Shown here piece by piece: positions 31,749 to 47,237 of a stretch of 64,000 nucleotides of DNA. The first letter of the stretch is position 1; each line of letters begins with the position of its first letter. Position numbers and translations under genes: made by a program. The stretch is from Phragmitibacter flavus (GTDB taxonomy: Bacteria; Verrucomicrobiota; Verrucomicrobiia; Verrucomicrobiales; Verrucomicrobiaceae): assembly GCF_005780165.1 (NCBI RefSeq), contig NZ_VAUV01000016.1:1-64000 (forward strand), in the 5' to 3' direction. The notes under the pieces were generated by a model. That model saw nothing but the letters and a program-made list of their open reading frames with translations. It ran no database searches and was not told the origin of the DNA.

Positions 31749-31770
31749 GAGGGTGATTGACGGGCTGGGA

Positions 31771-31913
31771 GTAGTCCCGGGCTTTAGCCCGATGAAAGCA
31801 TCGCCATGCGAATAAGCGTGGCAGTCATCAGAGTCTTGAACGTGCCGGGCGATCCTGGCTTGGGATTGCATTTTTGTTGGAGTTGGCTTTGACGGGCTAA
31901 AGCCCGGGAATAC
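31771..31913. repeat. REPIN: two REP palindromes in inverse orientation (143 bp)
   Basis: Left REP with core CCCGGGCTTTAGCCCG (31776-31791) and right REP with core CGGGCTAAAGCCCGGG (31893-31908), about 100 bp apart. Outer ends are GTAGTCCCGGG and CCCGGGAATAC. The internal sequence shares several blocks (CATCAGAGTCTTGA, TTGGAGTTGG) with the copy at 41133-41347. It sits between the phosphatase and the first sensor kinase. Presumably spread by the RAYT at 41.4 kb. Confidence 0.88.
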
Positions 31914-31953
31914 GCTCGCTTGATGGCTGCAATGAAGTATTGCATCGTGACCG

Positions 31954-34017
31954 ATGCAGTCCACCCACTTGGTTCTTTTTCTCGTCCTGCTCGCTGCCAT
32001 CCAGCCGGCAGGCGCGGCGGAAGTGGTGCGCAGCGCGGCGGTGCTGCGGGCGATGGCTCCTGATGAGGCGAAGAAAGGACTGCCAGTGGAGATGGAGGCG
32101 GTGGTGACGTTTGTGGACAGGAGTTGGGGGAATTTGTTTGTGCATGACGGCACGGCGGGTGTGTATGTGATGGCGGGTGAGCAGGTGAAGCAGGCGTCAT
32201 GGATCGCGGTGGGGCAGAAAGTAGGAGTGAGAGGCGTGACGGGAGACGGCTTTTTGCCAGTGATCGTGGCGGCGGAACTCGTTGAGCTGGGCGAGGGAGT
32301 GTTGCCTGCGCCCATGGTGCCGAAGTCGCTGGAAGCGATTCAGACACCGGCGTTGGATTCCCAGTGGGTGGAGGTGGAGGGCGTGGTGAAGCGCCTGGCA
32401 GACGAATATGCCGGCCTCACGCTTTACCTGCAATCCGGTCCACTGGAGCTGCCTGCCGTTTTGCCGCGCACCGAGACGCTGGCGGCTGTGGGCACGCTGC
32501 CGCTACATCTGCTGGAGCGGCGGGTGCGGGTGCGGGCGGTGGCGGCGACGCAGTTCAATGAGCAGGGACAGATGAGCGGGCGGCATTTGTATCTGCCAGG
32601 CATGAGTTTCCTGACGCTGCTCGATCCGGCGCAGGAGTCGCCGCCAGCGCCGCTGCGGCGGGTGGATGAGCTGCTGCGGGTCGGCTCGCCTCTTGATGAG
32701 CGGGTGCGATTGCGCGGCGTGGTGACTCACGCGGTGCCGGAGCAGATGCTTTTTCTACGCGGTGATGGCGGCAGCATGAGGATTGATTCGGCGCTGACGC
32801 CGGATTTGAAGCCGGGGACGATGATCGAGGCGGAAGGTTACGCGACGTTCATGCCGCTGCGGCCAGGATTGAATGCGGCGGAGCTGCAAATCTTGGAGGA
32901 AGGGCCGCCGCCGGTGCCGCTGCGGCTCGCTCTGACATCCGAACGCCGCAGCGCGGAGCAGTATGAGCTGGTGACGCTGGATGCGGACTTGGTGGAGGCG
33001 TTGCCCACACCGCGTGAGACGATCCTGCTCTGCCGCGCGGGCGCAGTGGTGTTTGAGGCCAGTCTGCCGCCGGGCGAGACTGCACCATTGGCGCTGGAGC
33101 CGGGGATGCGGCTGGGATTGACGGGCATCTGCGAGTTGGAGATGAACAATCCGTTTGGTATCGCCCAATGGACAAAGGAGTTCACGCTGAAGCTACGCTC
33201 TGCGCGTGATGTGGTCATTTTGCAAAGGCCTCCGTATTGGAATGCGGCGCGGCTCCTGATGCTGCTCTCCGCTGTTGGTGGTGCAGCGTTGCTGGTGGCT
33301 GCTTGGGCCTGGATGCTTCGAAGGCAGGTGGCGCGGCAGGCAGCGGTGATCGAGCGGCAGACGACGACGAAAGCGACGCTGGAGGAGCGTCAGCGCATCG
33401 CCCGTGATCTGCATGACACGCTGGAGCAGGAGCTGAGCGGGCTGGCGATCTTGCTGGATACGACCTCGCAGCAGTTTGAAACCGGTGAGGGCACGCCCGA
33501 CAAGACGCTGGGCCTCGCCCGGCAGCTTCTGCGGCGCAGTCGTGAGGAGTCGCGCTCCACCATCCGCGACTTGCGCAGCATGGCGATCGAGCAGCTCGGC
33601 CTGCTCGGTGCGATGGAGACGATGCTGCGTCCGCTGGCTGAGAGCGCGGGTCTGACGTTTGTTTTTTCAGCAGAGGGCAAAGAGAGAAGACTCCGGGGCG
33701 ATGTGGAGTCTGCATTCCTGCGAGTGGCCCATGAAGCGGTGGCGAATGCGGCGAAACACTCGCGCGGCAGCCGTGTGGAGGTGCGCACGAGTTTTTCTGC
33801 TGATGCGGTGAAACTCGACGTGAGTGATGATGGCACAGGATTCTGTCCCGAAACGGCCGCAGATGACGCCACCGGCCATTTTGGCCTCAGCGGCATGAGG
33901 GAGCGTGCGGTGCGGATCGGCGCGGATTTGCGTCTGGACGCTCAAAATGGGAGCGGGACATGGGTTTCGCTCGTTTGGAGCCATTCGCGGCTGGCAGTTG
34001 AGGATACTAATGATTAA
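31954..34017 (+). CDS. NarL-type sensor histidine kinase with OB-like extracytoplasmic region
   Basis: 687 residues. Signal segment STHLVLFLVLLAAIQPAGAA. A long extracytoplasmic part (about 25-425) is built of beta-rich repeats recalling OB-fold segments (VEMEAVVTFVDRSWGNLFVH, VRLRGVVTHAVPEQMLFLRG). One membrane helix lies at about 430-455. The HisKA_3 dimerisation motif RQRIARDLHDTLEQELSGL has the phospho-accepting His487. The HATPase_c part follows (VAHEAVANAAKHSRG, DDGTGF, HFGLSGMRERA). It should phosphorylate the regulator 18 bp downstream. The signal is unknown; the downstream genes suggest carbohydrate. Confidence 0.92.
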   Translation: MQSTHLVLFLVLLAAIQPAGAAEVVRSAAVLRAMAPDEAKKGLPVEMEAVVTFVDRSWGNLFVHDGTAGVYVMAGEQVKQASWIAVGQKVGVRGVTGDGFLPVIVAAELVELGEGVLPAPMVPKSLEAIQTPALDSQWVEVEGVVKRLADEYAGLTLYLQSGPLELPAVLPRTETLAAVGTLPLHLLERRVRVRAVAATQFNEQGQMSGRHLYLPGMSFLTLLDPAQESPPAPLRRVDELLRVGSPLDERVRLRGVVTHAVPEQMLFLRGDGGSMRIDSALTPDLKPGTMIEAEGYATFMPLRPGLNAAELQILEEGPPPVPLRLALTSERRSAEQYELVTLDADLVEALPTPRETILLCRAGAVVFEASLPPGETAPLALEPGMRLGLTGICELEMNNPFGIAQWTKEFTLKLRSARDVVILQRPPYWNAARLLMLLSAVGGAALLVAAWAWMLRRQVARQAAVIERQTTTKATLEERQRIARDLHDTLEQELSGLAILLDTTSQQFETGEGTPDKTLGLARQLLRRSREESRSTIRDLRSMAIEQLGLLGAMETMLRPLAESAGLTFVFSAEGKERRLRGDVESAFLRVAHEAVANAAKHSRGSRVEVRTSFSADAVKLDVSDDGTGFCPETAADDATGHFGLSGMRERAVRIGADLRLDAQNGSGTWVSLVWSHSRLAVEDTND

Positions 34018-34035
34018 CCTCTGACCACTTTTGCC

Positions 34036-34659
34036 ATGTCCATCCGCATTCTCATCATCGACGATCATTTCGTGCAGCGCCTCGGGTTGACGGTGGCCAT
34101 CAACAACGAAAAAGACCTCCGCATCGCCGGACAGGGCGGCAGTGTGGCGGAGGCGGTGGCGCTCTATGAGAAGTTGAAGCCCGATGTGACGCTGATGGAC
34201 TTCTCTTTACCCGACGGAACGGGGGTGGAGGCCGTGAAGCGCATCCGCGAAAAGCATGATGACGCTCAAATCCTCATGCTCACCGTGCTCGATGGTGAAG
34301 AAGATGTCTTCCGCGCCAGTGACGCCGGAGCGGCGGGCTATCTGACGAAGTCGGCGGATGTGAAGACGCTCATTGCAGCGATTCGCGAGGTGGCAAATGG
34401 CGGCACCTTTTTTTCGGAATCGGCCCGCGCCAAGATCGAGGCGCGGATGAAACGGGAGCCGCTGACGCGCCGGGAACTGGAGATCGTGCATCTCATCGTC
34501 GAGGGACTGGCGAACAAGGAGATCGGCGGGCGTCTTGGCATCACCGAGGGCACCGTGAAGCTGCATGTGGCGAAGGTGCTGACGAAAACCGGCGCGCCCG
34601 ACCGCACGCGCGCGGCCATTCTTGCAGTGGAGCGGGGCCTCGTGCGACTGGGCGGGTGA
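34036..34659 (+). CDS. NarL/LuxR-type response regulator
   Basis: 207 residues. Receiver domain with IIDDHFV (acidic pair), phospho-acceptor Asp55 in DVTLMDFSLP, switch residue in MLTVLDGEED and YLTKSAD Lys. C-terminal LuxR-type HTH: LTRRELEIVHLIVEGLANKE then LGITEGTVKLHVAKVLTKTG. Partner of the kinase just upstream. Likely controls the downstream LamG/PQQ and GH39 operon, by position only. A damaged second copy of its HTH follows directly. Confidence 0.93.
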   Translation: MSIRILIIDDHFVQRLGLTVAINNEKDLRIAGQGGSVAEAVALYEKLKPDVTLMDFSLPDGTGVEAVKRIREKHDDAQILMLTVLDGEEDVFRASDAGAAGYLTKSADVKTLIAAIREVANGGTFFSESARAKIEARMKREPLTRRELEIVHLIVEGLANKEIGGRLGITEGTVKLHVAKVLTKTGAPDRTRAAILAVERGLVRLGG

Positions 34660-34679
34660 GCATGCGCAACGGCCTGTTG

Positions 34680-34825
34680 TCCGGCGGGTCGGCGGGCGTC
34701 TCGGCATCAGGGAAGGCACCGTGAAACTGCACGTGACCAATTTACTCGCCAAGTTCGGTGCGCCGAACCGCACCCTGGCGGCGGTGCTGGCGGTGTCGAA
34801 GGGCCTCGTGCGGCTGGGCGGGTGA
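34680..34825 (+). pseudogene. Remnant duplicate of the response-regulator HTH domain
   Basis: GGRLGIREGTVKLHVTNLLA, KFGAPNRT and AVLAVSKGLVRLGG repeat the C-terminal part of the preceding regulator (GGRLGITEGTVKLHVAKVLT, KTGAPDRT, AILAVERGLVRLGG). There is no receiver, no start of its own and no first HTH helix. Both copies end in GLVRLGG and a stop. Best read as the leftover of a second tandem regulator or of a partial duplication. Probably not expressed as a functional protein. Confidence 0.8.
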
Positions 34826-34826
34826 G

Positions 34827-34842
34827 TATGTCTAACGACATA
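34827..34842. promoter_or_regulatory. Candidate operator palindrome TATGTC-TAAC-GACATA
   Basis: Perfect 6-bp inverted repeat with a 4-base centre, 72 bp before the ATG of the large secreted enzyme and just after the regulator region. Size and symmetry would suit a LuxR-type dimer, but no second copy was found by eye, so this is only a candidate. Confidence 0.3.
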
Positions 34843-34913
34843 TCGCGGACTGCGACCGGGTTTGATAGGATTGGCGCCCTCACACCCAACCATCACCCAC
34901 CACCTTGGCAGTC

Positions 34914-37900
34914 ATGCATTGGCATTTCCGTTTTTTCTTTCTGCTCACCCTTTCTTTCACGGCCATGCCGTGCGGGCTGCGCGCGGAACTGAAGCACCGC
35001 TGGTCGTTCAACAACACGTCTGGAGCGGTGACTCATGGCACGGCGCTGACGGATAGCGTGAGCGGCACGACGGCGCTGGTGGTGGGGACGGGCGCGACCT
35101 TTTCAGGCAGTCAGCTCACTCTGCCTGGCAATACGGGCGGCATCCAGACGGCGGCGAACATCGCGGGGTATCTCGATCTGCCGAATGGCATTCTCTCGTC
35201 AAAAACCAGCGTGACCGTGGAGGCATGGGCCACACCGCTTTCAGCAAAGGGATGGATGCGGTTGTTTGACTTCGGAAGATCGGCGGATGCGGGAGTCGGC
35301 GGTGGTGCGCCGGGGGAGATCACGGCGAATACGGCAGTGGCTCCGGCTGGCGGGGCGCCTTCGGACAATTTGATGCTGTCGTTCTGCCGTGGTCTGGAGC
35401 TGGGTCAGCAGCGCTTCGAGATCATGCGCAATGGTGTGTTCATGGGCGCGCGGAACACGGACTGGCCGACGACGGTGGGGCAGCAGTATCTTTATACGAT
35501 GGTGTTTGAAGGCGGTGCTGGCGCTTACGGGGCCGCAGGCGGACAACTGACGTGGTATCGCGATGGCGTGGTGATCGCGACGATGCCGGTGGCATTTAGG
35601 CTCGCTGACTTGCAGGACGTGAACAATTGGATTGGACGCTCAAACTGGACCTGGGACTCGAACGCGCACATGTCGCTGAATGAGCTGCGCATTTACGATC
35701 ATGCGCTGACGCAGGAGGACATCACCGCGAATCATTTGGCAGGGCCGGATGCGCCACCGGGGCAGGCTCCGAACTGGACCGTGGCACCCACGCCGGTGAA
35801 TCGCTGGACCTTCAACACCGCCGCTGGCACCGCGCCGAGCGGCACTGTTTTTGATGACGTGATCAGCGGCACTCCGGCCATCGTGCGGGGTCATGGAGCG
35901 ACGCTGAACGGGGCCAAAATCACGCTCCCTGGCGGCACCAATGGCAATCAAACCGCCGCGAATATCTCCGCCTATCTCGATCTGCCGAATGGCATCCTCA
36001 GCTCAAAACCGAACTTCACCATCGAGGCATGGTGTGCGCCGCTTTCCTCGCAAACGGATCAGCGGCTCTTCGATTTTGGCCGCAGCACGGCCACACGCGG
36101 TCCAGGGGCGCTTTTGGGCGAAATCATTGATGACGGAACGATCGGCGGTTTCGCTGGGTTCGACAATTTGGCGCTCACTTTGAATTCAGGAGCCGCCTTT
36201 GGTCAAAACCGCCTAGAGGGCCAATACAACGGTGCTCCGCCCATTTTGTTTGAGACGAACCTGACGGCCGTGACGGAACCTGGCCGCGAGTATCACTATG
36301 TGCTCGTTGTGGAGGACAACAAGGGTCTCTACGGCACCGGCGGCAGCGTGTCGAAGTGGTATCGCAACGGCGTGCTCCAGGATGTGCTGCCGTATCCCTT
36401 TCACATGAACCAGCTCGCCGACGTGAACAACTGGGTCGGCCGCTCGCAATACAGCGGGGACATGAACGCGCACTTCGCACTGAATGAGATGCGCATCTAC
36501 GACCGGGCGCTCACGCCTGCGGAGATCCTGGCGAGTTACCATGCGGGCGCGGAGGCGCAATACGGCCCCGTGGTGGCCGTGGCGGACAGTGTGACGATCC
36601 ACGCAGGCCAAAAAGTGCGCGTGGATGTGGTGCAAAACGACACCGGCGGCATCGCGCATCCGCTTTACCTCGAAGTCACGACCGCGCCTGCTGTCGGCAC
36701 CGCCACGGTGCAAAACGATGGCACCATATTGTATGCTCATGCGGGTGTGAGCACCGCACCGGTGATGTTTGCGTATCGTGTGCTCGGGCAGGGCGGCTGG
36801 TCGGCTCCTGCCACGGTCACGGTGAATGTTTCCAGTGCTCTGCGCATTGCCAATGTGGGCCTCAATGTGCCGGATGCGCCACCGACGAATCGCGTGGCAG
36901 TGGAAAGTGCGTTTGGTGAATTGCAGTTCAACAAACCGCTCGCCTTTGCCAGCCCGCCAGGGGACACGCAGCGGCTTTTTGTCTGCGAGATTGAGGGCAA
37001 CCTCAAAGTCATCCCCGATGTCTCCGCCGCCACGCCCACGAGCGCTGTGGTGCTGGATTTGCCCGCGCTGCTCGCCACACGCATCGGCGAGGTGCTCGAT
37101 CCTGGACCCTTCGGTGAGAACGGATTGCTCGGCATGGCCTTCCATCCGCAGTTCGCCACCAACGGCTATTTCTTCGTCACCTACACCGTGCAGAAGGCCA
37201 GTGATCCTGGCGTGTGGTATGACCGTCTCGCACGCTTCACCATTCCTGCGGGACAGATCAACTCGCCGACACCTGCGGCTGATCCTGCGTCCGAGCTGAT
37301 CTTCATCGAGCGGCGCATTCGTGGCCCAAATCATCACGGCGGCGACATTCACTTCGGCGCGGATGGATATCTCTACACGGCCTACGGCGACGAGGAGAAT
37401 GCCAACGACTTCCGCAACAACAGCCAGCGCATCGATTTGAACTTCTTCGGCGCCATGCTGCGCATCGACGTGGATCGTCTGCCAGCGAACTTGGAGCCGA
37501 ATCCGCACGCCTCCATTCCCACCGATGCCGGAGTGGCACGCTACAAAGTGCCCGCAGACAATCCGTATGTCGGCGTCACCACGTTCAACGGTATCACGCT
37601 CAATCCGGCCAATGTGCGCACGGAGTTCTGGTCTGTGGGCCTGCGTAGTCCGTGGCGTTTCTCCATTGATGCACCCACGGGTGAGCTGTGGTGCGGCGAT
37701 GTCGGACAGGACATTTACGAGGAGATTCATCTGCTCTCCAGCGGCACGAACGCTGGCTGGGCTTTCCGCGATGGCTTGCACCCAGGCCCGAAGGCCGCGC
37801 AGGCTCCCGCGGGCTTCACTTCCAGCCCTCCAATCTATGAATACCTGCACACCGGCGTGGCTGGGGGGGATGGAAACTACAAGGGCAACTCCATCATTGG

Positions 37901-39449
37901 CGGCGTGGTCTATCGCGGCACCAGGATCCCCAGTCTGACTGGTGCCTATATTTTCGGCGATCAGGTCAGTGGTCACATTTGGGCACTGACAAGACCCGGT
38001 GGCGTCGTCACCGTGCAGCGCATCGCCGGATCACCGAGTCCAGTGAATTTCGGCCACGATCCCTCAAACGGCGACATCCTTTTCTCTGCCTACTTCAACG
38101 GCAAAATCATGCGCCTGAAGACCGCGCTGCCGGATGACAGCTACCCGACGACATTGAGCGCCACGGGTGTTTTTGCGGATCTCACGGATCTCTCACCCGC
38201 GCCCGGTTTGCTGCCTTACACGCCCAATTTGACCTTCTGGAGTGACTTCGCCGTGAAGAACCGCTGGTTCACGTTGCCGGAAGCGGGCAGCAAGATGACG
38301 TGGAGCAAAGACGGCGTGTGGACCTTCCCGAATGGCGGCGTGTGGGTGAAACACTTCGACATGGAAATGACCCGCGGCAATCCCGCGACCAAGAAGCGCC
38401 TCGAAACCCGCCTGCTCGTCAAAAACACCAGCGGCGTCTATGGCGTGAGCTATCGCTGGAACGACGCGCAGACCGAGGCCACGCTCGTCGCCGACGCGGG
38501 CGAGGATTTTGATTTGAACGTCATCGAGAACGGCACGCCACGCGTCCAGCATTGGAGTATCCCCAGCCGCTCCCAATGCATGGCCTGCCACACGAGCAAC
38601 GCAGGCGGCATGTTGTCCTTCAATACCCGCCAACTCAACCGCAGCGGCACCCTGAATGGCGTCACCGGCAACCAGCTTGATCTGCTTGAAGCCGCTGGTT
38701 ATTTCCACAACCCCGTGCCCTCCACGAATCTCCTGCCGCGTCATGTGCGCCCGGATGAAACCGCCTTCCCCATTGAAGCCCGTGTGCGCTCGTATCTCGA
38801 CGTGAACTGTTCCTATTGCCATCAGGCCGGCGGCTCCGGTCCCGCCTGGGATGGCCGCGCTCACCTCACTCTCACGCAAACTGGCATGATCAACGGCTTC
38901 GGTGTAGCGCTGCACGCTGGCGATAAACTCATCGTCCCCGGCGACACGCTGCATTCGATCATCCTCAGCCGCACCGCCGCCATCAATGGCTATACGCGCA
39001 TGCCGCCGCTCGCCACCTCCGAGTTGGATCAAACCGGCATCCAGCTCCTCACCGACTGGATCAACCACTCGCTGCCCTCACGACAAACCTACGCCAACTG
39101 GCGGCTCGCCCAGTTCGGCAGCAGCACCAGCCCAGAAGGAGCCCCATACGTCGATGCCGACGCCGATGGCGCGACGAACATGGCCGAGTTCCTCGCGTTC
39201 ACGAATCCGCTCAGTGGCGTGAGTTCCTTAAAGCCCACCCTCAACGTCGCTGGAACCACCGCCACGCTCACTTTCGACGTGCCTGCCAATCGCAGTTTCA
39301 TCATCGAAACCACCGATGATTTAGTGAACTGGGTCCAATGGGACACGCCAGGAAACAGCGGCCAGGCACAGCCCGGTGGCAGCGTAACCATCTCCGGGCC
39401 GAGCAACGGCGAGCGGCAGTTCTTCAGGCTGCGGTTGAGTGAAAACTGA
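34914..39449 (+). CDS. Secreted multidomain enzyme: two LamG domains, PQQ-type sugar dehydrogenase and two-haem C terminus
   Basis: 1511 residues. Signal peptide (FRFFFLLTLSFTAMPCGLRA). Two LamG/concanavalin-like domains at about 25-280 and 290-545, both containing YLDLPNGILSSK and ending LNELRIYD or LNEMRIYD. An Ig-like domain at about 550-640 is followed by a glucose/sorbosone-dehydrogenase-type beta propeller at about 665-1070 (GLLGMAFHPQFATNGYFFVT, RRIRGPNHHGGDIHFGADGY, PWRFSIDAPTGELWCGDVGQ). The C-terminal part has two c-type haem sites, CMACH (about 1220) and CSYCH (about 1298). It probably binds glycans and oxidises a sugar, passing electrons to its own haems. The tail has a DADADGATNMAEFLA calcium-type loop. 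Start at 34914 chosen over TTG 34905. Confidence 0.88.
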   Translation: MHWHFRFFFLLTLSFTAMPCGLRAELKHRWSFNNTSGAVTHGTALTDSVSGTTALVVGTGATFSGSQLTLPGNTGGIQTAANIAGYLDLPNGILSSKTSVTVEAWATPLSAKGWMRLFDFGRSADAGVGGGAPGEITANTAVAPAGGAPSDNLMLSFCRGLELGQQRFEIMRNGVFMGARNTDWPTTVGQQYLYTMVFEGGAGAYGAAGGQLTWYRDGVVIATMPVAFRLADLQDVNNWIGRSNWTWDSNAHMSLNELRIYDHALTQEDITANHLAGPDAPPGQAPNWTVAPTPVNRWTFNTAAGTAPSGTVFDDVISGTPAIVRGHGATLNGAKITLPGGTNGNQTAANISAYLDLPNGILSSKPNFTIEAWCAPLSSQTDQRLFDFGRSTATRGPGALLGEIIDDGTIGGFAGFDNLALTLNSGAAFGQNRLEGQYNGAPPILFETNLTAVTEPGREYHYVLVVEDNKGLYGTGGSVSKWYRNGVLQDVLPYPFHMNQLADVNNWVGRSQYSGDMNAHFALNEMRIYDRALTPAEILASYHAGAEAQYGPVVAVADSVTIHAGQKVRVDVVQNDTGGIAHPLYLEVTTAPAVGTATVQNDGTILYAHAGVSTAPVMFAYRVLGQGGWSAPATVTVNVSSALRIANVGLNVPDAPPTNRVAVESAFGELQFNKPLAFASPPGDTQRLFVCEIEGNLKVIPDVSAATPTSAVVLDLPALLATRIGEVLDPGPFGENGLLGMAFHPQFATNGYFFVTYTVQKASDPGVWYDRLARFTIPAGQINSPTPAADPASELIFIERRIRGPNHHGGDIHFGADGYLYTAYGDEENANDFRNNSQRIDLNFFGAMLRIDVDRLPANLEPNPHASIPTDAGVARYKVPADNPYVGVTTFNGITLNPANVRTEFWSVGLRSPWRFSIDAPTGELWCGDVGQDIYEEIHLLSSGTNAGWAFRDGLHPGPKAAQAPAGFTSSPPIYEYLHTGVAGGDGNYKGNSIIGGVVYRGTRIPSLTGAYIFGDQVSGHIWALTRPGGVVTVQRIAGSPSPVNFGHDPSNGDILFSAYFNGKIMRLKTALPDDSYPTTLSATGVFADLTDLSPAPGLLPYTPNLTFWSDFAVKNRWFTLPEAGSKMTWSKDGVWTFPNGGVWVKHFDMEMTRGNPATKKRLETRLLVKNTSGVYGVSYRWNDAQTEATLVADAGEDFDLNVIENGTPRVQHWSIPSRSQCMACHTSNAGGMLSFNTRQLNRSGTLNGVTGNQLDLLEAAGYFHNPVPSTNLLPRHVRPDETAFPIEARVRSYLDVNCSYCHQAGGSGPAWDGRAHLTLTQTGMINGFGVALHAGDKLIVPGDTLHSIILSRTAAINGYTRMPPLATSELDQTGIQLLTDWINHSLPSRQTYANWRLAQFGSSTSPEGAPYVDADADGATNMAEFLAFTNPLSGVSSLKPTLNVAGTTATLTFDVPANRSFIIETTDDLVNWVQWDTPGNSGQAQPGGSVTISGPSNGERQFFRLRLSEN

Positions 39450-39461
39450 TCCCTTTATTTT

Positions 39462-41129
39462 ATGACGAGATACACCCAACGAGCCGTCGTATCGGCCTTC
39501 TTATTCCTGTCGTCTCTGACTTCCGCGCCAGCGAAAGACGCGGACTTCCCCGTCCAGATCACCGTGGATGCCTCCGAGCCCCTCGGCGAGCTGAAGCCCA
39601 TCTGGCGCTTCTTCGGCGCGGATGAGCCGAACTACACTTACATGCCCGAGGGCGAGAAACTGCTCGGCGAACTCGGCAAGATGAAGCCCGGGGAAGTCTT
39701 CTTTCGCACGCACAATCTGCTCACCACAGGCGATGGCACGCCTGCGTTGAAATGGGGCAGCACGAACGCCTACACCGAGGATGCCGAGGGTCGCCCGATT
39801 TACGATTGGACCATCGTGGACATGATCTTCGATGCCGGACTCCAGCGCGGCGTGAGGCCGTTTGTGCAGATTGGTTTCATGCCGAAGGCGCTCTCCATCA
39901 AACCAGAGCCGTATCAGCACCAGTGGACGCCAGAAGCGGGCTACAACGAGATTTTCACCGGCTGGGCCTACCCGCCGAAGGACTATGCGAAGTGGGAGGA
40001 ACTCGTTTTCCAATGGGCGAAGCATTGCGTGGAGAAATACGGCAGGGACGAGGTGTTGAAGTGGTATTGGGAGACGTGGAACGAGGCCAACATCCCCTAC
40101 TGGCGCGGCACGCGGGAGGAGTTCTTCAAGCTGCACGACCACGCCATCCGTGCGGTGCGGCGGGCGCTGCCAGAGGCAAAGGTCGGCGGGCCGGATGTCG
40201 CGGGCGGACCGGGCGGCACGTTTTTGGCCGAGTTCCTCACGCATTGCCAGAAGGCGGGCACGCCGGTGGATTTCATCTCCTTCCATGCCAAGGGCAAACC
40301 AGAGTTTGTGGACGGGCATGTGCGCATGGGCATCTCGCATCACCTCAATGACATTGATCGCGCCTTCAAAGTCATCGCCGGATTTCCTGAGTTCAAAGAC
40401 AAGCCCATCGTCATCGGCGAGTCCGATCCCGAGGGCTGTGCTGCCTGCCAGGGGCCGCAGCTCGGCTACCGGAACGGCACCATGTATTCCAGCTACACCG
40501 CCGCCAGTTTTGCGCGGAAGCACGACCTCGCCGCGCGGCATGACGTGAACCTCGAAGGCGCTCTCACCTGGGCCTTCACTTTTGTGGATCAGCCGATCTT
40601 TGGCGGCTTCCGCCAGCTCGCCAGCGGCGGCATCGACCACCCGGTGCTCAATACCTTCCGCATGTTTTCGAAGATGAGCGGCCAGCGTCTCGACGTGCAA
40701 AGCAGCGCTGCCATCGCGCTCGATGACATGATGAAAAATGGTGTGCGTGACAAGCCCGATGTCTCCGCGCTCGCCAGCATGGATGGCGGCAGGCTTTGCG
40801 TGCTCGCGTGGCATTATCACGAAGACGACGTGCCCGGCCCTGATGCAGCGATTGACCTCTCGCTCGCTGGTTTGCCTGCAAACAGCGGCAAAGCCCGCGT
40901 GGAGCACTACCGTATCGACGCCGATCACAGCAACGCCTACGAAGTGTGGAAGAAACTCGGCTCCCCGCCGAATCCCACGCCCGAGCAGCAGACCACGCTG
41001 GAGAAGGCCGGACAGCTCGCGGTTTTCGGACCGGCGGAGGCGATCGCGGTGAAGGATGGCGCCGCGTCCATTCGCGTGCAGCTCCCGCGTCAGGCGGTGT
41101 CGCTGCTGGTCGTGACGATGGAGCCGTAG
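39462..41129 (+). CDS. Secreted glycoside hydrolase, GH39-like (beta-xylosidase/iduronidase clan A)
   Basis: 555 residues with signal peptide (AVVSAFLFLSSLTSAPA). A TIM-barrel hydrolase of clan GH-A. The general acid/base is Glu208 in WYWETWNEANIPYW; the likely nucleophile is Glu320 in KPIVIGESDPEGC. FFRTHNLLTTGDGTP near residue 90 and DFISFHAKG also match GH39. It probably removes xylose or a uronic acid from plant-type glycans. Starts 12 bp after the large dehydrogenase gene, hence the same operon. Uses C-ending codons like its neighbours. Confidence 0.85.
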   Translation: MTRYTQRAVVSAFLFLSSLTSAPAKDADFPVQITVDASEPLGELKPIWRFFGADEPNYTYMPEGEKLLGELGKMKPGEVFFRTHNLLTTGDGTPALKWGSTNAYTEDAEGRPIYDWTIVDMIFDAGLQRGVRPFVQIGFMPKALSIKPEPYQHQWTPEAGYNEIFTGWAYPPKDYAKWEELVFQWAKHCVEKYGRDEVLKWYWETWNEANIPYWRGTREEFFKLHDHAIRAVRRALPEAKVGGPDVAGGPGGTFLAEFLTHCQKAGTPVDFISFHAKGKPEFVDGHVRMGISHHLNDIDRAFKVIAGFPEFKDKPIVIGESDPEGCAACQGPQLGYRNGTMYSSYTAASFARKHDLAARHDVNLEGALTWAFTFVDQPIFGGFRQLASGGIDHPVLNTFRMFSKMSGQRLDVQSSAAIALDDMMKNGVRDKPDVSALASMDGGRLCVLAWHYHEDDVPGPDAAIDLSLAGLPANSGKARVEHYRIDADHSNAYEVWKKLGSPPNPTPEQQTTLEKAGQLAVFGPAEAIAVKDGAASIRVQLPRQAVSLLVVTMEP

Positions 41130-41132
41130 CAT

Positions 41133-41347
41133 AGCCCGCCAAAGGATCGCCAGCAGAACAGGGGTGCAGCCATCAGAATCTTGAGCGGGCAGGTCGATCT
41201 CTGGAGTATTCCCGGGCTTTAGCCCGCTAAAGGATCGCCAGCAGAACAGGGGTGCAGCCATCAGAATCTTCAGCGGGCAGGTCGCTCTCTGGTTTGGAAA
41301 TGCACTTTTATTGAAGTTGGCGTTGACGGGCTAAAGCCCGGGAATAC
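41133..41347. repeat. REPIN with a partial tandem duplication, before the RAYT gene
   Basis: REP palindromes at 41206-41227 (GTATTCCCGGGCTTTAGC...) and, inverted, at 41327-41347. The block from AGCCCGCC at 41133 is repeated from 41221 with a period of 88 bp and only a few changes (CCAAAGG/CTAAAGG, TTGAGCGG/TTCAGCGG, CGATCTCTGG/CGCTCTCTGG). The right REP ends 10 bp before the transposase ATG, so the element may also carry its promoter or leader. Confidence 0.88.
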
Positions 41348-41357
41348 GCTCGCTCCA

Positions 41358-42061
41358 ATGACCTTCAGGCCGTTTGACCGGAAGGCTGCGGTGCGCATCA
41401 CACGGCAAAATTTCCCGCACTGGCGGCAGGAGGGGACGACTTATCTGGTCACGAGCCGACTGGCGGATTCGCTGCCAAAAGACGTCGCAGACGACTGGCG
41501 CAGCAAGCGCGACGAATGGCTAGCTCAACACGACGCGACCTGCGTGGACGAGCTCGCGGAGGAATTTCGACTTGACTGCCAACGTTTGTTTACCGACAAG
41601 TTTCATGACCTGATCGACGCGGGTTACGGCGAATGTTTACTCGCCCGACGCGAGTGCGCGGACATTTTGATCGGCAAGATGATCGAAGGCCACGGGACGT
41701 GTTTTCAACTGGGGGAGTGGTGCATCATGCCGAATCATTTTCACGCCGTGGTGGAGCCTGCGAAGGGATCGATGCTGGGCGGGATGGTGCAGCATTGGAA
41801 AGGCGGCAGCAGTTTCGCGATCAACCGGATGCTTGGCTGCTCTGGCAGTCTGCGGGTGAAGGAACCGTTCGATCACATCATTCGCAGTGAGCGGCCATGG
41901 CGGCGGTTGGGTGGTATGTGGTGGACAGTCTAGTGAAGGCGAAATTGAAGGCGGGTTATGTGTTGGGTTTCGGTGGAGGTTGGATTGGTGGGAGAAGAGT
42001 TGATGGAGCGTATTTCCAGGCTTTAACCCGTCAGGGGGAGCAGGGGGCGTGGGGCTGTTGA
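41358..42061 (+). pseudogene. REP-associated tyrosine transposase (RAYT, Y1_Tnp), frameshifted
   Basis: RAYTs are domesticated relatives of IS200/IS605 transposases that move or maintain REPs. The start RITRQNFPHWRQEGTTYLVT and the HUH motif MPNHFHAVVEP are diagnostic, as is KEPFDHIIRSE. The first frame then runs out at 41933 without the catalytic tyrosine. The frame two bases on continues GWYVVDSLVKAKLKAGYVLG, which matches the usual Tyr-containing Y-I-x-N-P-V-K-A-x-L helix, to a TGA at 42059-42061. Loss of one G in the run at about 41908 would explain it. Flanked on both sides by REP palindromes, as expected for a RAYT. Confidence 0.88.
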
Positions 42062-42127
42062 AGTTGCCGGGCAGATTCGGGGCGTGGCGTGTTATCGATG
42101 TTTTTGCGGGCTAAAGCCCGGGAATAC
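42010..42127. repeat. Degenerate REPIN after the RAYT gene, running into a PEP-CTERM gene
   Basis: Left arm GTATTTCCAGGCTTTAACCC (degenerate, from 42010) and right arm GCGGGCTAAAGCCCGGGAAT (from 42106, intact). The left arm overlaps the end of the RAYT reading frame. The right arm lies inside the 3' end of the PEP-CTERM coding region, whose stop is at 42092-42094. Confidence 0.85.
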
Positions 42128-42937
42128 ACGCCGCCGCGCCAACAATCCCATCATGCCAAACATCACCAACAGCGCCCGTGATGGCTCGGGAATGGCGGAG
42201 GCCACAATGAAACCAAGATCGTCGTAACGCACGAAATTGCTTTGGGTGAGCGAAAAGCTCACGATTGGGTTGGCCTCGGTGCCTGACAGGCCATGGAAAT
42301 AATTGGAGCCCGCATCTGGTCCCGCATTCGCTCCCGATGTGCTTGCGGTGGTGTTGTCCAGATAGGTAACCGTCAGCACGGAAGTGCGACCGGAATCACC
42401 CCGGTTTCCGACAAAAATTCCGAGGCTAAGCAGCGGCGTGTCCAGTGTGAAAGTTCGGGTCATCGCAGAATTGCTGAGGCCCAATCCCAGTGTTCCAGAA
42501 GTTGCTTCCGCGGTGTCGATGAAACCCGTGTTGATAGCGTCACCGCCCAAGGTCATTACCAAGCTGTTGGCTAGTGAAGTGCCATAGCTAAAGGTGATCG
42601 TTTCTCCGACTTCGACTTGGGAGAAGATAGTTTCAAAGTCCCACACGCCTCCGATGTTGTTGGCGTATGCAGTGGCGATGTCTGAGCCAAAAGTCGTCGA
42701 AGTGAAGGAATTCCCCGTCGCATTGATGATTGTCTTACCGTTCCCGTTCACCGTTCCCACGGTGTTGACGAGGATGGAGGCCGCAGCAGCGCTGTCGATG
42801 GAGGCTGCCAGGATGCCGACCATCGCGAGGATGGACCGCCACCGTTTTGCTTTAGTTTTTGTGTGGTGACGGCTGGCAACCAATGGTGATTGACCAGAGA
42901 GCTGGAATTTTGAGCAGGTTTTCGTATCTGGTTTCAT
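42092..42937 (-). CDS. PEP-CTERM sorting-domain exported protein
   Basis: 281 residues from ATG 42937 (an in-frame ATG at 42973 is also possible). The export signal is unusually far in (RSILAMVGILAASIDSAAAA, about residues 34-53). The mature part is a beta-rich domain (NGNGKTIINATGNSFTSTTF, IGGVWDFETIFSQVEVGETI). The C terminus has IPEPSRALLVMFGMMGLLAR followed by RR, a typical PEP-CTERM anchor recognised by exosortase. The last eleven residues (VFPGFSPQKHR) and the stop come from the adjoining REP palindrome. No exosortase gene lies in this window. Confidence 0.88.
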   Translation of the reverse strand: MKPDTKTCSKFQLSGQSPLVASRHHTKTKAKRWRSILAMVGILAASIDSAAAASILVNTVGTVNGNGKTIINATGNSFTSTTFGSDIATAYANNIGGVWDFETIFSQVEVGETITFSYGTSLANSLVMTLGGDAINTGFIDTAEATSGTLGLGLSNSAMTRTFTLDTPLLSLGIFVGNRGDSGRTSVLTVTYLDNTTASTSGANAGPDAGSNYFHGLSGTEANPIVSFSLTQSNFVRYDDLGFIVASAIPEPSRALLVMFGMMGLLARRRVFPGFSPQKHR

Positions 42938-43012
42938 GGTGATTGGTGAGAAAATGTTGGATGCGATGTTCAAATTTTACCTAAGTCCGTCGACGCAATC
43001 AACGGCCCGCGT

Positions 43013-43031
43013 ATGGCACTTTAGTCCTGCA
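43013..43031. repeat. 19-bp direct repeat, copy 1 (end of the GH5 gene)
   Basis: ATGGCACTTTAGTCCTGCA, identical to 44302-44320. This copy spans the GH5 stop codon; the other lies 28 bp before the longest GH5 start. Confidence 0.8.
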
Positions 43032-44253
43032 TGACCGGCTCCAGGCGGTGGCTGGTTCCGGAATGATCCGACGTGGCGACGGATTCGGGCTGCCGGAGCA
43101 TCTCTACCAATTCGTCATGGGGCACGAAGGGTGGCTTGCGTGAAACCACACCGCCTGGGGTGTCCCATAGAACAGGGATCATTTTTCTTTTCAGCGCCGC
43201 GCGGTAGACGGCTGACGTCCATCGGACCCGGGAGGCCTTTTCTTTGTCGGAACAAAGGGAGAACTCGCCGAGAAAGACCGGGATGTTGTTGCGGGCACTG
43301 AACTCCTGCAGCCTGTCGAAGAGTTCTTCCAGTTGTTTCACGTCGTCCCCGCTTCCCCAGGTGGGTTGCATTTTGGCCCAGGTGGTATCCTTGTTCATTC
43401 CCACAAACGGCCACGGCGTGTAGTAGTGGAGGGAGATGAAGAGCTTTCCAGGAGTGGTATCCGTGGGCAGTTGGTATTCTTTCTGGCAGGTCTTGTCGAT
43501 GTCCGTAGAATAACCGGGGACGATCAGCAGACGCTGCGCGTTGTTCTCGCCGGTGGCGCGCACGGTGTCGATAAAAAGCTGGTTCACGCGGGTCAACGTG
43601 GCGTAGGCTTGTTCAACGGTTCCTTCATTGGCAAAGTTCGTTTCTTCATTGAGGCCCTCGAAGAGGAGCTTCTCGCCATGGGTGGCAAAATGCGTGGCGA
43701 TCTGCTGCCAATAGGAGCGGAACTTCTTCTCGGCCTCAGGGCTGAATGTGTGATAGGTGTCGGGGAATCGCTCCTTCGAACCGGAATCGATCCAGCCGCC
43801 GTCCCAGTGGATGTTGATCACGCAAAACATGCCGGCATCCATGATCCAGCCGGCCACCTCGCCAACGCGCCGAAACTGTTCGGTCGTGATTTTTCCATGG
43901 TCGGCAAACGTGTCCCAAGCCACGGGCAAGCGCACCGTCTTGAAGCCCAGACTGGCGAGGCTCTGGATGAACTCTTTGGTGATGAGCGGACTACCCCAGC
44001 CCGTCTCCCATTGTTGGATGTTGTCAAAGGTATTGCCGAGGTTGATGCCGGGCGTCATTTGCGAAACCGCCGTCCACGCATCGAGAGAGATTGTTGTTTT
44101 GGCTTCCTCGGGTGGCTTGGGCGCTGTGGCCTGTTCAGACGCGTGGGTGAGCACGGTCATCAACAACCAGCACCAGCCAACCATGAGGATCGAGTTGGTG
44201 AATTGGGTTCGATTTTTTTGAGTGATGTGAATGGTTTTTTCCAGGGCTTCCAT
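43021..44253 (-). CDS. Secreted glycoside hydrolase family 5 (cellulase-like)
   Basis: 410 residues from ATG 44253 (a GTG at 44274 is also in frame). Signal or anchor segment SILMVGWCWLLMTVLTHASE. The GH5 TIM barrel shows TPGINLGNTFDN, GFKTVRLPVAWDTFADHGKI, VINIHWDGGW and the acid/base Glu in LLFEGLNEET (about 203). HYYTPWPF follows, and the nucleophile Glu is in PVFLGEFSLC (about 330). It should cut beta-1,4-glucan or a related beta-mannan/xylan. Divergent from the second sensor kinase, which may control it. Bracketed by an exact 19-bp direct repeat. Confidence 0.92.
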   Translation of the reverse strand: MEALEKTIHITQKNRTQFTNSILMVGWCWLLMTVLTHASEQATAPKPPEEAKTTISLDAWTAVSQMTPGINLGNTFDNIQQWETGWGSPLITKEFIQSLASLGFKTVRLPVAWDTFADHGKITTEQFRRVGEVAGWIMDAGMFCVINIHWDGGWIDSGSKERFPDTYHTFSPEAEKKFRSYWQQIATHFATHGEKLLFEGLNEETNFANEGTVEQAYATLTRVNQLFIDTVRATGENNAQRLLIVPGYSTDIDKTCQKEYQLPTDTTPGKLFISLHYYTPWPFVGMNKDTTWAKMQPTWGSGDDVKQLEELFDRLQEFSARNNIPVFLGEFSLCSDKEKASRVRWTSAVYRAALKRKMIPVLWDTPGGVVSRKPPFVPHDELVEMLRQPESVATSDHSGTSHRLEPVMQD

Positions 44254-44301
44254 TTGGCCGGTCATTAGACCCACGACCGCGCATCACGCGAGGCTCCAGT
44301 A

Positions 44302-44320
44302 ATGGCACTTTAGTCCTGCA
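44302..44320. repeat. 19-bp direct repeat, copy 2 (upstream of the GH5 gene)
   Basis: ATGGCACTTTAGTCCTGCA, the same as 43013-43031, in the 140-bp divergent gap between GH5 and the second kinase. It may be a recombination scar or an operator half-site copied with the gene. Confidence 0.8.
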
Positions 44321-44393
44321 CGGGCAGGCAGCCGATGGTTCTGGCTTTCCGTGGAAGTTCAATGCCGCTAGAATCAAATTCGTTCCAATTTCC

Positions 44394-46532
44394 ATGCACC
44401 GCCGCTTTTCGTCTGTCATTGCCATGCTTCTCGCATGCGGCGCGCCGACATTTGGCGCTTCCGGCGGGGATGGGAATGGGCAGACGCTCACGACCATCGC
44501 CGCCGTGCAGGCACTCACGTTGGACGAAGCGGCGCGACATCATCCCGTTCAGGTGCGCGGCATCATCACCTATTGCAATCCCGCTTACGGTCTCGGTTTC
44601 GTGCAGGATGAAACGGGTGGCATCTTCTTCACGCCGCCTGCGGTGGGCGCTGCCGATTCACCTGTGCTCGCGGCGGGTGACCGCGTGGAGATCACCGGCA
44701 TCACCCGCCGCGGACGGTTTTCACCGAGCATCTCGATCCTGCCCGATGATCCTGAAAGCGCGGAGGCATCTACAGGCGCTCCCGTGGTGAGGCGCATCGT
44801 TCGTCTCGGCGCAGGCTCGCTTCCCACGGTGCCGCTTGTGGACGTGGATCGGATCAATACGGGCGATTTTCACGACCAGTTCGTGAGGGTGCGTGCGACG
44901 CTCCGGCGCGCGACGGAAAACCCTGACCTTTTGATGGAGCAACTTTATGTGGATGCCAGCAGCCGCTCCGGTGCGCTCAAGATTATTCTGGACTGTCCGC
45001 GGAGCCAGCAAGCGGCGGTCAAGGAATGGGAAAATGTGGAGGTGGAGATCAGCGGGGTGGTTTCCGGCGAAGCCAATGACCGCAGCGAGCTTCGTAAAGT
45101 GACCCTGCTCGTCGCCTCGGTCGCGCAGATCAAACCCGGCACCGCCGCCATGCAGGCCAGCTTCAATCAGCCCGTGCGCGGCTTTCGCGAACTGCTGCAA
45201 TACCGGCCTCCGCAGCCCGGCGCGACGGGCGAGCGGCAGCATGTCAAGGGCATCGTAACCTTGGTGCATGCTTCGCGTGGCGGCTTTTATCTGGGCAGCG
45301 AGCAGGGTGGTCTATGGGTGCAAACCCCGCAGCACACCACCGTGCAGCCCGGCGATGAGCTTGATGTCATCGGTTACATTGCCGGTGGTGCCGACGAAGG
45401 CGTCTGGCTGGCGGATGGCATTCATCGCGTCGCGCGGCAGGTGGTGCCCTACGCACCACGGTTGAGCACCGCCGATGAGGTTGCCAAGGGCGGCCACCAT
45501 GGCAGTCTGATCCAGGTGGAGGGACAGTTGATCGACCAGTTTGATCGTCCAAACCATCGCCTTCTTTATCTCGGCGCGGAAGGCCAAACTTTCTACGCAC
45601 GGGTCGCGGAAAGCGCCGCTACCACGCCACCATTTGCGTTGGAAAAAGGGAGCTGGCTGCGGCTCACGGGGGTCTGTGAAAGGCCCAATGGTTCCGCCAC
45701 CCGCGAGTCGTTTTCGTTGCTGCTGCGCGAGAATGCGGACATCGTCTTGATAAGCACACCGCCCTGGCTCAATGCCGAGCGATTGCGCTGGCTTCTTGGC
45801 GGCGTGCTCTTGCTGACGTTGCTGGTCAGTGCCTGGGTGCTCCTTCTGCACCGGCAGGTTGGCCGCCAGACCCGGGTCATTGCGCATCAGCTTGAACAAA
45901 AGACGCTCAGTGACGAGCGCCGTCGCATCGCCCGCGAACTGCACGACACGCTGGAGCAACAGCTCGCTGGCGTGAACATCCATCTTGATACCGTCGCCGA
46001 ATGTGCGCCGGAACTGCCCGCGCCCGTCTCCCGCGCGCTCGACAACGCCCGTGCGATGCTCACCCACAGCCGCGCCGAGGCGCACCGCTCCATCCTCGAA
46101 CTGCGCTCCCGTGCCATCGAGCAGGCCGGCCTCGTTGGATCAGTGCGCGAATCCGTTGAGGCGTTGCAGATCATTACCCCGCGCATCACCATCGAGGTCG
46201 AAGGCGAGGAGCAACGGCAGCCACACCACATCGAGTTCCAGTTGCTGCGCATTGTGCAGGAATCCATCACCAACGCCCTAAAACACGCACAGGCCAGCCA
46301 CATCGTCGTGCGCTTCCAGTTCACCCCGGATGACCTGCGTGTCACCATCACCGACAACGGCATCGGTTTTGATGCTGCGCACCCCCCCGCCGTGCAAGGC
46401 ACCCAGTTCGGGCTGCTCGGCATGGGCGAGCGAGCGGCGAAAATTCGTGGCATGCTCGACATCCAGAGCCAACCTGGAGCCGGTTGCACCATCACTGTCA
46501 GCGTGCCGACACAACACCCGCGACCTGCATGA
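44394..46532 (+). CDS. NarL-type sensor histidine kinase, paralogue of the 31954 kinase
   Basis: 712 residues with the same plan as the first kinase. A signal segment is followed by a long extracytoplasmic region with OB-like repeats (HPVQVRGIITYCNPAYGLGF, VQDETGGIFF, ERQHVKGIVTLVHASRGGFY). A membrane helix lies at about 461-483 (WLLGGVLLLTLLVSAWVLLL). HisKA_3 RRRIARELHDTLEQQLAG carries the likely phospho-site His517, then HATPase (IVQESITNALKHAQA, TDNGIGFDAA, FGLLGMGERAA). ATGA overlap with its regulator. Probably senses an envelope signal linked to glycan use; ligand unknown. Confidence 0.92.
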   Translation: MHRRFSSVIAMLLACGAPTFGASGGDGNGQTLTTIAAVQALTLDEAARHHPVQVRGIITYCNPAYGLGFVQDETGGIFFTPPAVGAADSPVLAAGDRVEITGITRRGRFSPSISILPDDPESAEASTGAPVVRRIVRLGAGSLPTVPLVDVDRINTGDFHDQFVRVRATLRRATENPDLLMEQLYVDASSRSGALKIILDCPRSQQAAVKEWENVEVEISGVVSGEANDRSELRKVTLLVASVAQIKPGTAAMQASFNQPVRGFRELLQYRPPQPGATGERQHVKGIVTLVHASRGGFYLGSEQGGLWVQTPQHTTVQPGDELDVIGYIAGGADEGVWLADGIHRVARQVVPYAPRLSTADEVAKGGHHGSLIQVEGQLIDQFDRPNHRLLYLGAEGQTFYARVAESAATTPPFALEKGSWLRLTGVCERPNGSATRESFSLLLRENADIVLISTPPWLNAERLRWLLGGVLLLTLLVSAWVLLLHRQVGRQTRVIAHQLEQKTLSDERRRIARELHDTLEQQLAGVNIHLDTVAECAPELPAPVSRALDNARAMLTHSRAEAHRSILELRSRAIEQAGLVGSVRESVEALQIITPRITIEVEGEEQRQPHHIEFQLLRIVQESITNALKHAQASHIVVRFQFTPDDLRVTITDNGIGFDAAHPPAVQGTQFGLLGMGERAAKIRGMLDIQSQPGAGCTITVSVPTQHPRPA

Positions 46533-47167
46533 GCAAGACATCACCTCCCATCATCCGTGTGCTTCTGGTGGACGATCATTTCTTCGTTCGCTCCGGCGTC
46601 AAAGTATCGCTCGAAGCCGAAGGCGACCTTCGGGTCGTCGCTGAAGCCGACAGCGCCGCCACCGCCATCGAACAATACCGCGAGCATCAACCCGACGTGA
46701 CCCTCATGGATGGCAACCTTCCTGATCGCAGCGGCATCGAAGCCCTCAGCGACATCCGCGCCGAATTTGCCAAAGCCCGCATCATCATGCTCACCATCCA
46801 TGAGACCGAGGAAGATGTTTACCATGCCGTCGCCGCCGGCGCCACCGGCTACCTGACGAAGTCATCGGGCCGCCGGGAAATGCTTCACGCCATCCGCGAA
46901 GCCGCGCACGGCCGACGTTATTTTTCACCCGAACTCACCGCCCGTCTCAACGCCCGTCGCGCTCGTCCGGAACTGACCAGCCGCGAGACCGAAGTCCTCC
47001 AGCACGTCGTTGCCGGCACTCCGAACAAAATCATCGCCGACCACCTCGGCTGCACCGAACAGACCATTAAAAACCACCTCAGCCACATCTTTGCCAAGCT
47101 TGGCGTGCAAGACCGCACCTCCGCCACCGTGACCGCATTGCGCCGTGGGCTGGTGCGGCTGGAGTGA
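46529..47167 (+). CDS. NarL/LuxR-type response regulator, partner of the second kinase
   Basis: 212 residues. Receiver: VLLVDDHFFVRSGVKVSLE, phospho-acceptor Asp61 in DVTLMDGNLPD, MLTIHETEED and GYLTKSSGR. HTH: LTSRETEVLQHVVAGTPNKI then LGCTEQTIKNHLSHIFAKLG. Start codon overlaps the kinase stop. Candidate targets are the divergent GH5 gene and the PEP-CTERM proteins nearby; this is by position only. Confidence 0.93.
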   Translation: MSKTSPPIIRVLLVDDHFFVRSGVKVSLEAEGDLRVVAEADSAATAIEQYREHQPDVTLMDGNLPDRSGIEALSDIRAEFAKARIIMLTIHETEEDVYHAVAAGATGYLTKSSGRREMLHAIREAAHGRRYFSPELTARLNARRARPELTSRETEVLQHVVAGTPNKIIADHLGCTEQTIKNHLSHIFAKLGVQDRTSATVTALRRGLVRLE

Positions 47168-47237
47168 GAGGGCTTCGAGGTGTGTCTCTGGGCTCCAGCC
47201 AAACCTCGGATGGCAAAGTTTTCCATCCTTTAGTCCT

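Follow-up and report, generated by a model that had tools for sequence, protein, structure and literature searches.

Sensor kinases encoded beside glycoside hydrolases are a known feature of Bacteroidetes polysaccharide utilization loci (PULs) with hybrid two-component systems, and the same arrangement is found at positions 31954-47167 of the stretch of Phragmitibacter flavus DNA analysed here (the window), which is the first 64 kb of a 132-kb contig (C16) of the 5.9-Mb genome. This region contains two histidine kinase-response regulator pairs (HK1-RR1 and HK2-RR2), two glycoside hydrolase genes (GH39 and GH5), a gene for a large LamG fusion protein, a PEP-CTERM gene and a REP-associated tyrosine transposase (RAYT)-like ORF. 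Unlike in the PULs, kinase and regulator are separate NarL-type proteins rather than single-protein hybrids, the gene cluster is not conserved, and the Pfam scan detected no SusC/SusD-like gene among the nine island proteins. The kinases share their core domains with DesK/NarX-type kinases that work with NarL/LuxR-type regulators, and they likewise adjoin REC-GerE regulators, but their sensor is predicted to consist of four tandem extracytoplasmic OB-type barrels, which in HK1 match no Pfam family. The 1511-aa LamG fusion protein joins LamG, GSDH and a diheme cytochrome, as do the secreted cytochrome-LamG proteins of planctomycetes and Verrucomicrobia (PSCyt1/PSD1, DUF1501 pairs and GSDH-cytochrome fusions), although it lacks a PSCyt2/PSD1 domain; kinases of the HK1/HK2 family, here and in other genomes, adjoin LamG-PSD1 or DUF1501 genes. 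As in RAYT/REP (REPIN) systems, the RAYT-like ORF is flanked by inverted doublets of repetitive extragenic palindromes (REPs), but the whole 5.9-Mb genome has only five REP copies, all local, and the RAYT looks broken. Finally, a GH5 locus of G154, a genome of the same class but of another family than the host, encodes a GH5 71% identical to that of the window, and PEP-CTERM relatives are found in the same genome; the GH31, MFS transporter, SASA esterase and GH3-like genes of that locus, however, were not carried into the window.

The reading that we favour, with a probability of about 70%, is that the patch is a mosaic of genes of different origin around a resident kinase, with no bracketed unit. 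A 13-kb block (34.0-47.2 kb) behind HK1-RR1 would have arrived recently enough to still lack the host strand bias. Within it, GH5 and the PEP-CTERM gene would stem from a G154-like lineage, the GH39 and LamG-GSDH-cytochrome genes have their nearest relatives inside the host's own family, HK2-RR2 belongs to another clade of the kinase family that includes HK1, and a RAYT relic with local REP copies in the middle of the patch would mark mobile DNA. The preliminary description of this DNA had instead proposed one glycan-use unit, acquired or duplicated, under dedicated two-component control; its gene content and positions for 31954-47167 were reproduced by gene calling and a Pfam scan.

The preliminary description had also noted a raised use of C at third codon positions in the island. 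In about 842 kb of sequence (contigs C16 and C7 in full and most of C5), weighted C3 is 0.39 in the island, 0.39 upstream, 0.66 downstream and 0.41 on the other contigs, so that a plain C3/GC3 comparison shows no difference from the upstream genes or from other contigs. The island C3 does exceed that of its neighbours on the plus strand, because the use of third-position bases differs between the strands of this genome: fourfold-site G/C skew is strongly strand-dependent, with coding-strand means outside the block of +0.55 for plus-strand and -0.72 for minus-strand genes. A change of composition along the window is thus real, but only in terms of strand-aware skew, and it extends over 34036-47167, where eight consecutive genes lack the replication-strand skew of the genome. 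Pooled plus-strand skew is +0.62 upstream, -0.06 over the block and +0.84 downstream, and the flanking genes, whichever strand they are on, range from +0.17 to +0.90. Within the block, coding-strand skew lies between -0.57 and +0.29 for the plus-strand genes and, on the minus strand, is -0.32 for GH5 and -0.04 for PEP-CTERM; block and flanks differ with a Mann-Whitney p of 1.9e-5, and shuffling gives a p of 0.0016 for eight such low-skew genes in a row on C16. On either strand, the coding-strand skew of most island genes is slightly negative, as in G154, where the sampled genes are also without strand skew. The right edge of the block is sharp, falling within 47167-47297, right after RR2 (46529-47167, plus strand), a NarL-type regulator gene with strongly C-rich third positions, contrary to its surroundings (fourfold skew -0.57). 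HK1, with an overall skew of 0.45, lies outside the block. Acquisition of the 34.0-47.2 kb block is therefore supported by composition.

The phylogenetic distribution of the enzyme genes provides independent information. The GH5 gene (43021-44265, minus strand), assigned by Pfam, encodes an endo-beta-1,4-glucanase/xyloglucanase-like protein that aligns to endoglucanases and xyloglucanases, with E207/E334 aligned to the catalytic glutamates of Cel5D. None of 57 relatives has a match to it at E <= 1e-30, and it is absent from the 35 other genomes of the host family; across 285 genomes of the class there was one strong match, in G154 (71% identity over 342 aa; 75% over 941 nt at the DNA level), besides two distant genes in one further genome. 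The adjacent gene for a PEP-CTERM-type exported protein (42092-42823, minus strand), recognized by a profile scan, matched only two genes among the same 285 genomes, both in G154 (60% and 50%). In G154, GH5 (on contig C1, locus L179) is surrounded by a SASA esterase, an MFS sugar transporter, GH31 and a GH3-like ORF, a neighbourhood that would fit xyloglucan or hemicellulose use. The phylogenetic distribution thus supports the acquisition of the GH5/PEP-CTERM pair. The other two carbohydrate-related genes have different affinities. The beta-xylosidase-like GH39 gene (39462-41129, plus strand), identified by Pfam and by alignment to beta-xylosidases, in which E208/E320 match E160/E277 of 1px8 so that both catalytic glutamates are kept, has its nearest relative in G028 (67% identity) and a patchy distribution in relatives. 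The gene for the large secreted LamG fusion protein (34914-39449, plus strand; two Laminin_G_3 domains, Big_9, a GSDH domain of the PQQ-type glucose/sorbosone dehydrogenase fold and a C-terminal SO2930-type diheme cytochrome c region) is closest to a gene of G009 (53%) and has relatives in most genera of the host's family. For both genes the best matches come from the family or order to which the host belongs. Because the two gene pairs have different nearest lineages, the patch appears to be a mosaic of acquisitions.

Between the two gene pairs lies the RAYT-like ORF (41358-41933, plus strand), apparently the relic of an HUH endonuclease, which matched NF047646 with 35 bits against a cut-off of 80 and the C-terminal motif of which continues, as judged by eye, in another frame. 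The REP palindrome CGGGCTAAAGCCCG occurs in five copies in the whole genome, all within 31778-42120. One doublet (31768-31920) consists of inverted copies at 31778-31791 (minus strand) and 31893-31906 (plus strand) and ends 34 nt ahead of the HK1 start codon; a 66-nt stretch of it is 89% identical to the second doublet (41206-41347), upstream of the RAYT. The fifth copy (42107-42120, plus strand) is located 3' of the RAYT, overlaps the end of the PEP-CTERM gene and has a degenerate partner at 42006-42033. The abstract of PMC2817692 gives more than 100 REPs per genome as usual; with five copies, the REP set of the window did not spread.

Several observations weigh against the mosaic. The left edge of the block is blurred, somewhere between about 33.4 and 35.8 kb, with intermediate skew in the HK1 core and RR1 and a partly host-like first LamG domain. 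Other parts of the genome also contain skew-poor blocks (about five on C5 and one or two more on C16), so that flat skew alone is no proof of foreign origin. Neither a tRNA nor a direct repeat pairing both edges was detected at the borders of the block, and the island proteins include no integrase. (Relatives were also examined for an empty site by means of the ApbE and DUF4175 genes on either side, which told nothing either way, since these genes are not neighbours in relatives and synteny is too eroded.) Six of the block genes, those other than GH5 and PEP-CTERM, are without a proven foreign donor, and the association of the kinase family with genes for large secreted proteins, described below, comes from few independent lineages and is missing in many members. 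Lastly, the plus-strand ribosomal gene rplT also has a strongly negative skew, rich in C-ending codons, and codon selection can therefore mimic the signal on plus-strand genes. Adaptation of codons to translation, or else a past inversion, might thus have produced the flat skew without any acquisition, and the -0.57 of RR2 is indeed the full opposite-strand signature to be expected of an inverted resident gene. However, the minus-strand GH5 and PEP-CTERM genes are less C-rich than their minus-strand neighbours, contrary to the expectation under codon adaptation, whereas a simple inversion predicts strongly negative skew throughout rather than values near zero, and neither process accounts for the independent phylogenetic signal of GH5 and PEP-CTERM. 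We consider both processes unlikely as the source of the pattern.

Flat skew recurs in a number of other places. Positions 260-2593 of the window, with ORFs that resemble IS66-type elements by eye, are likewise without strand skew and represent another candidate acquired stretch. A second long run of flat-skew genes lies at the opposite end of the contig (C16 116747-131800), and a 3433-codon open frame with a skew of 0.04 lies within a run of plus-strand genes at C16 72679-82977. C5 carries several blocks, each 8-13 genes long, whose skew is flat or reversed, at 84-102, 120-186 and 282-300 kb.

The proposed bracketing of the island by two paralogous pairs was addressed through the ancestry of the kinases. 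HK1 (31954-34017, plus strand) has an N-terminal hydrophobic segment, the four predicted barrels, one transmembrane helix and a HisKA_3-HATPase_c core, and is followed by RR1 (34036-34659, plus strand), a NarL-type regulator with REC and GerE domains (Pfam). HK2 (44394-46532, plus strand; the start may be at 44394 or 44424) belongs to the same family but to another clade. In each kinase the HisKA_3 dimerisation domain and HATPase_c score above the Pfam cut-off. The core aligns with DesK/VraS structures, and no NCBIfam equivalog cut-off was reached; each kinase is adjoined by a separate REC-GerE/LuxR regulator, and this pairing is kept in relatives. HK1 and HK2 are homologous along their full length (BLASTP and alignment) but only 30% identical, and RR1 and RR2 are 46% identical. 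The genome encodes 12 HisKA_3 kinases, six of them with the HK1-type sensor, and among these paralogs the copy on C5 is nearest to HK1, followed by those on C29 and C7 and only afterwards by HK2. (A peptide-pattern search of the genome contigs with HK1 returned just two distant kinase cores, because short peptide patterns fail to reach the HK1 family.) In a maximum likelihood tree of 42 members of the HK1/HK2 family, HK1 groups with six genes from other genera (support 99/92) and HK2 falls into a separate clade (96/94), although the branch of HK2 is long and its exact neighbours are accordingly less certain; the six members from this genome are scattered over the tree, which entails six label changes. 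RR1 is closest to the regulators that partner kinases of the HK1 clade. Judged from these comparisons, HK1-RR1 and HK2-RR2 are old, independent members of an expanded, widespread kinase family that did not arise by duplication of one another, and their closeness around the enzyme patch is coincidental. HK1-RR1 is a resident member of this family, which is widespread in the host's bacterial family (at E <= 1e-30, the HK1-type sensor is present in 35 of the 57 relatives that were sampled).

A single glycan-use unit, acquired or duplicated as a whole and controlled from both ends, would account for the presence of two kinase-regulator pairs of one family, 10 kb from each other, on the two sides of GH39, GH5 and a secreted oxidoreductase of the carbohydrate type, and for the anomalous composition between the two kinases. 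Yet HK1 and HK2 are neither members of one clade nor the nearest paralogs of one another, and the closest relatives of both kinases are found at unrelated loci, an outcome that the preliminary description had itself named as contrary to its proposal. Moreover, HK1, HK2, GH39, GH5 and the LamG fusion never occur together in any sampled relative, where the individual parts sit in unrelated places; the composition of HK1 is host-like whereas that of the interior is not; and the nearest lineages of GH5/PEP-CTERM differ from those of GH39/LamG. We therefore regard the single unit as quite improbable. With it falls the analogy to the hybrid systems of PULs, the kinases being ordinary two-protein DesK/NarL systems, and dedicated two-component control of the whole island is unsupported. 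What stands of the earlier proposal is acquisition, of the GH5/PEP-CTERM pair by phylogenetic distribution and of the block by composition, but not duplication.

It is just as doubtful that HK1 is itself a recombinant, with a resident sensor joined at the HisKA_3 motif, as the left edge of the block, to an incoming core and RR1: its skew drops from a host-like 0.55 in the sensor to 0.22 in the core near the sensor/core boundary (Fisher p 0.0014), and a remnant of a second regulator tail with a 166-nt period lies directly behind RR1, but in 42 family members the core averages 0.15 (sd 0.17) below the sensor, so that the difference of 0.33 in HK1 is unexceptional, and sensor and core each best match the same clade. 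A recombination point inside HK1 was thus not upheld, a lower-skew core being general among family members. The remnant (34660-34837, plus strand) is a 178-nt stretch in tandem with RR1, and its 44 readable aa share 75% identity with the RR1 tail. A replacement of the original partner by RR1, with the remnant as the tail of that partner, was considered and rejected, since RR1 best matches the regulators of the HK1 clade and the remnant best matches RR1.

We turn to the sensor. An AlphaFold2 model of the HK1 sensor, built with 37 family members (pLDDT 89.8), contains four successive five-strand barrels at residues of about 44-114, 137-213, 250-316 and 339-424, ahead of the transmembrane helix at about 435-456, and a model of full-length HK1 agrees with the sensor-only model on the barrels. 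Structural comparison of the sensor alone gave almost exclusively OB domains (Asp/Asn-tRNA synthetase anticodon-binding, RPA, CST and HIN domains); units 1 and 3 matched those of Asp/AsnRS and RPA with Z scores of 10.8-12.6 and an rmsd of about 2 A over 80-90 residues, and units 2 and 4 are called OB from the strand order in the model alone. For the whole sensor, the best match among solved structures is the four-OB-barrel p204 HINab protein, with a large rmsd; in the model this is a resemblance of fold alone, without functional claim. The Pfam scan of the HK1 sensor matched nothing, whereas the sensors of a few relatives gave weak OB-type or DUF5666 matches, and none of the papers searched joins the OB-fold with an extracytoplasmic sensor kinase. 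The four tandem OB-type barrels of HK1 are thus confirmed as a model, and full-length homology indicates that the extracytoplasmic region of HK2 is of the same type, in agreement with the OB-like region that the preliminary description had attributed to both kinases.

The barrels of each kinase would bind a ligand, which is probably either an oligosaccharide or a partner at the cell surface, and the signal would pass through the single transmembrane helix to the DesK-like core, which would phosphorylate the adjoining NarL-type regulator. GH39 begins only 12 nt past the LamG fusion gene in the same orientation, and the two therefore probably form one operon. Control of this adjacent operon by HK1-RR1 is plausible: RR1 would act directly on the genes behind it, and the LamG-PQQ dehydrogenase-cytochrome and GH39 proteins might act outside the cytoplasm to cleave xylo-oligosaccharides and to oxidise sugars. 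Among some 21 kinase-regulator pairs of the family that were inspected, about 9 are directly followed by the gene of a large secreted protein (a hand count, from roughly five independent lineages) with LamG, PKD/Calx-beta, H-lectin/CHRD/DUF1800 with DUF1501, FG-GAP or CBM domains, against a base rate of 8% for such followers in this genome, which suggests that the pairs control these adjacent genes locally. HK2-RR2 probably acts elsewhere because no co-oriented target adjoins it, a convergent gene following directly without any obvious local target. In HK2-clade pairs of other genera (L185, L187 and L188) the next genes encode a giant H-lectin/CHRD/DUF1800 protein and a DUF1501 protein, assigned by domain scan at L185 and by similar length and start at L187 and L188; HK2 of the window is without these neighbours. 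A Rfam search of the window produced no match.

As such, the island is a rather unremarkable example of the transfer of carbohydrate genes among bacteria. In this genome, strand skew looks like a sensitive marker of acquired DNA, and skew at fourfold sites clearly flags candidate acquired blocks where total GC does not. More tentatively, and with odds that we put somewhat below even, an expanded family of NarL-type kinases in bacteria of the Verrucomicrobiales type may sense through four tandem extracytoplasmic OB barrels and locally switch adjacent genes for large secreted lectin/oxidoreductase proteins, a PUL-like logic implemented with separate kinase and regulator. The point that most deserves attention is this sensor family, whose four-barrel OB array would represent an extracytoplasmic input module uncatalogued in Pfam, with a ligand that is open to experimental testing.

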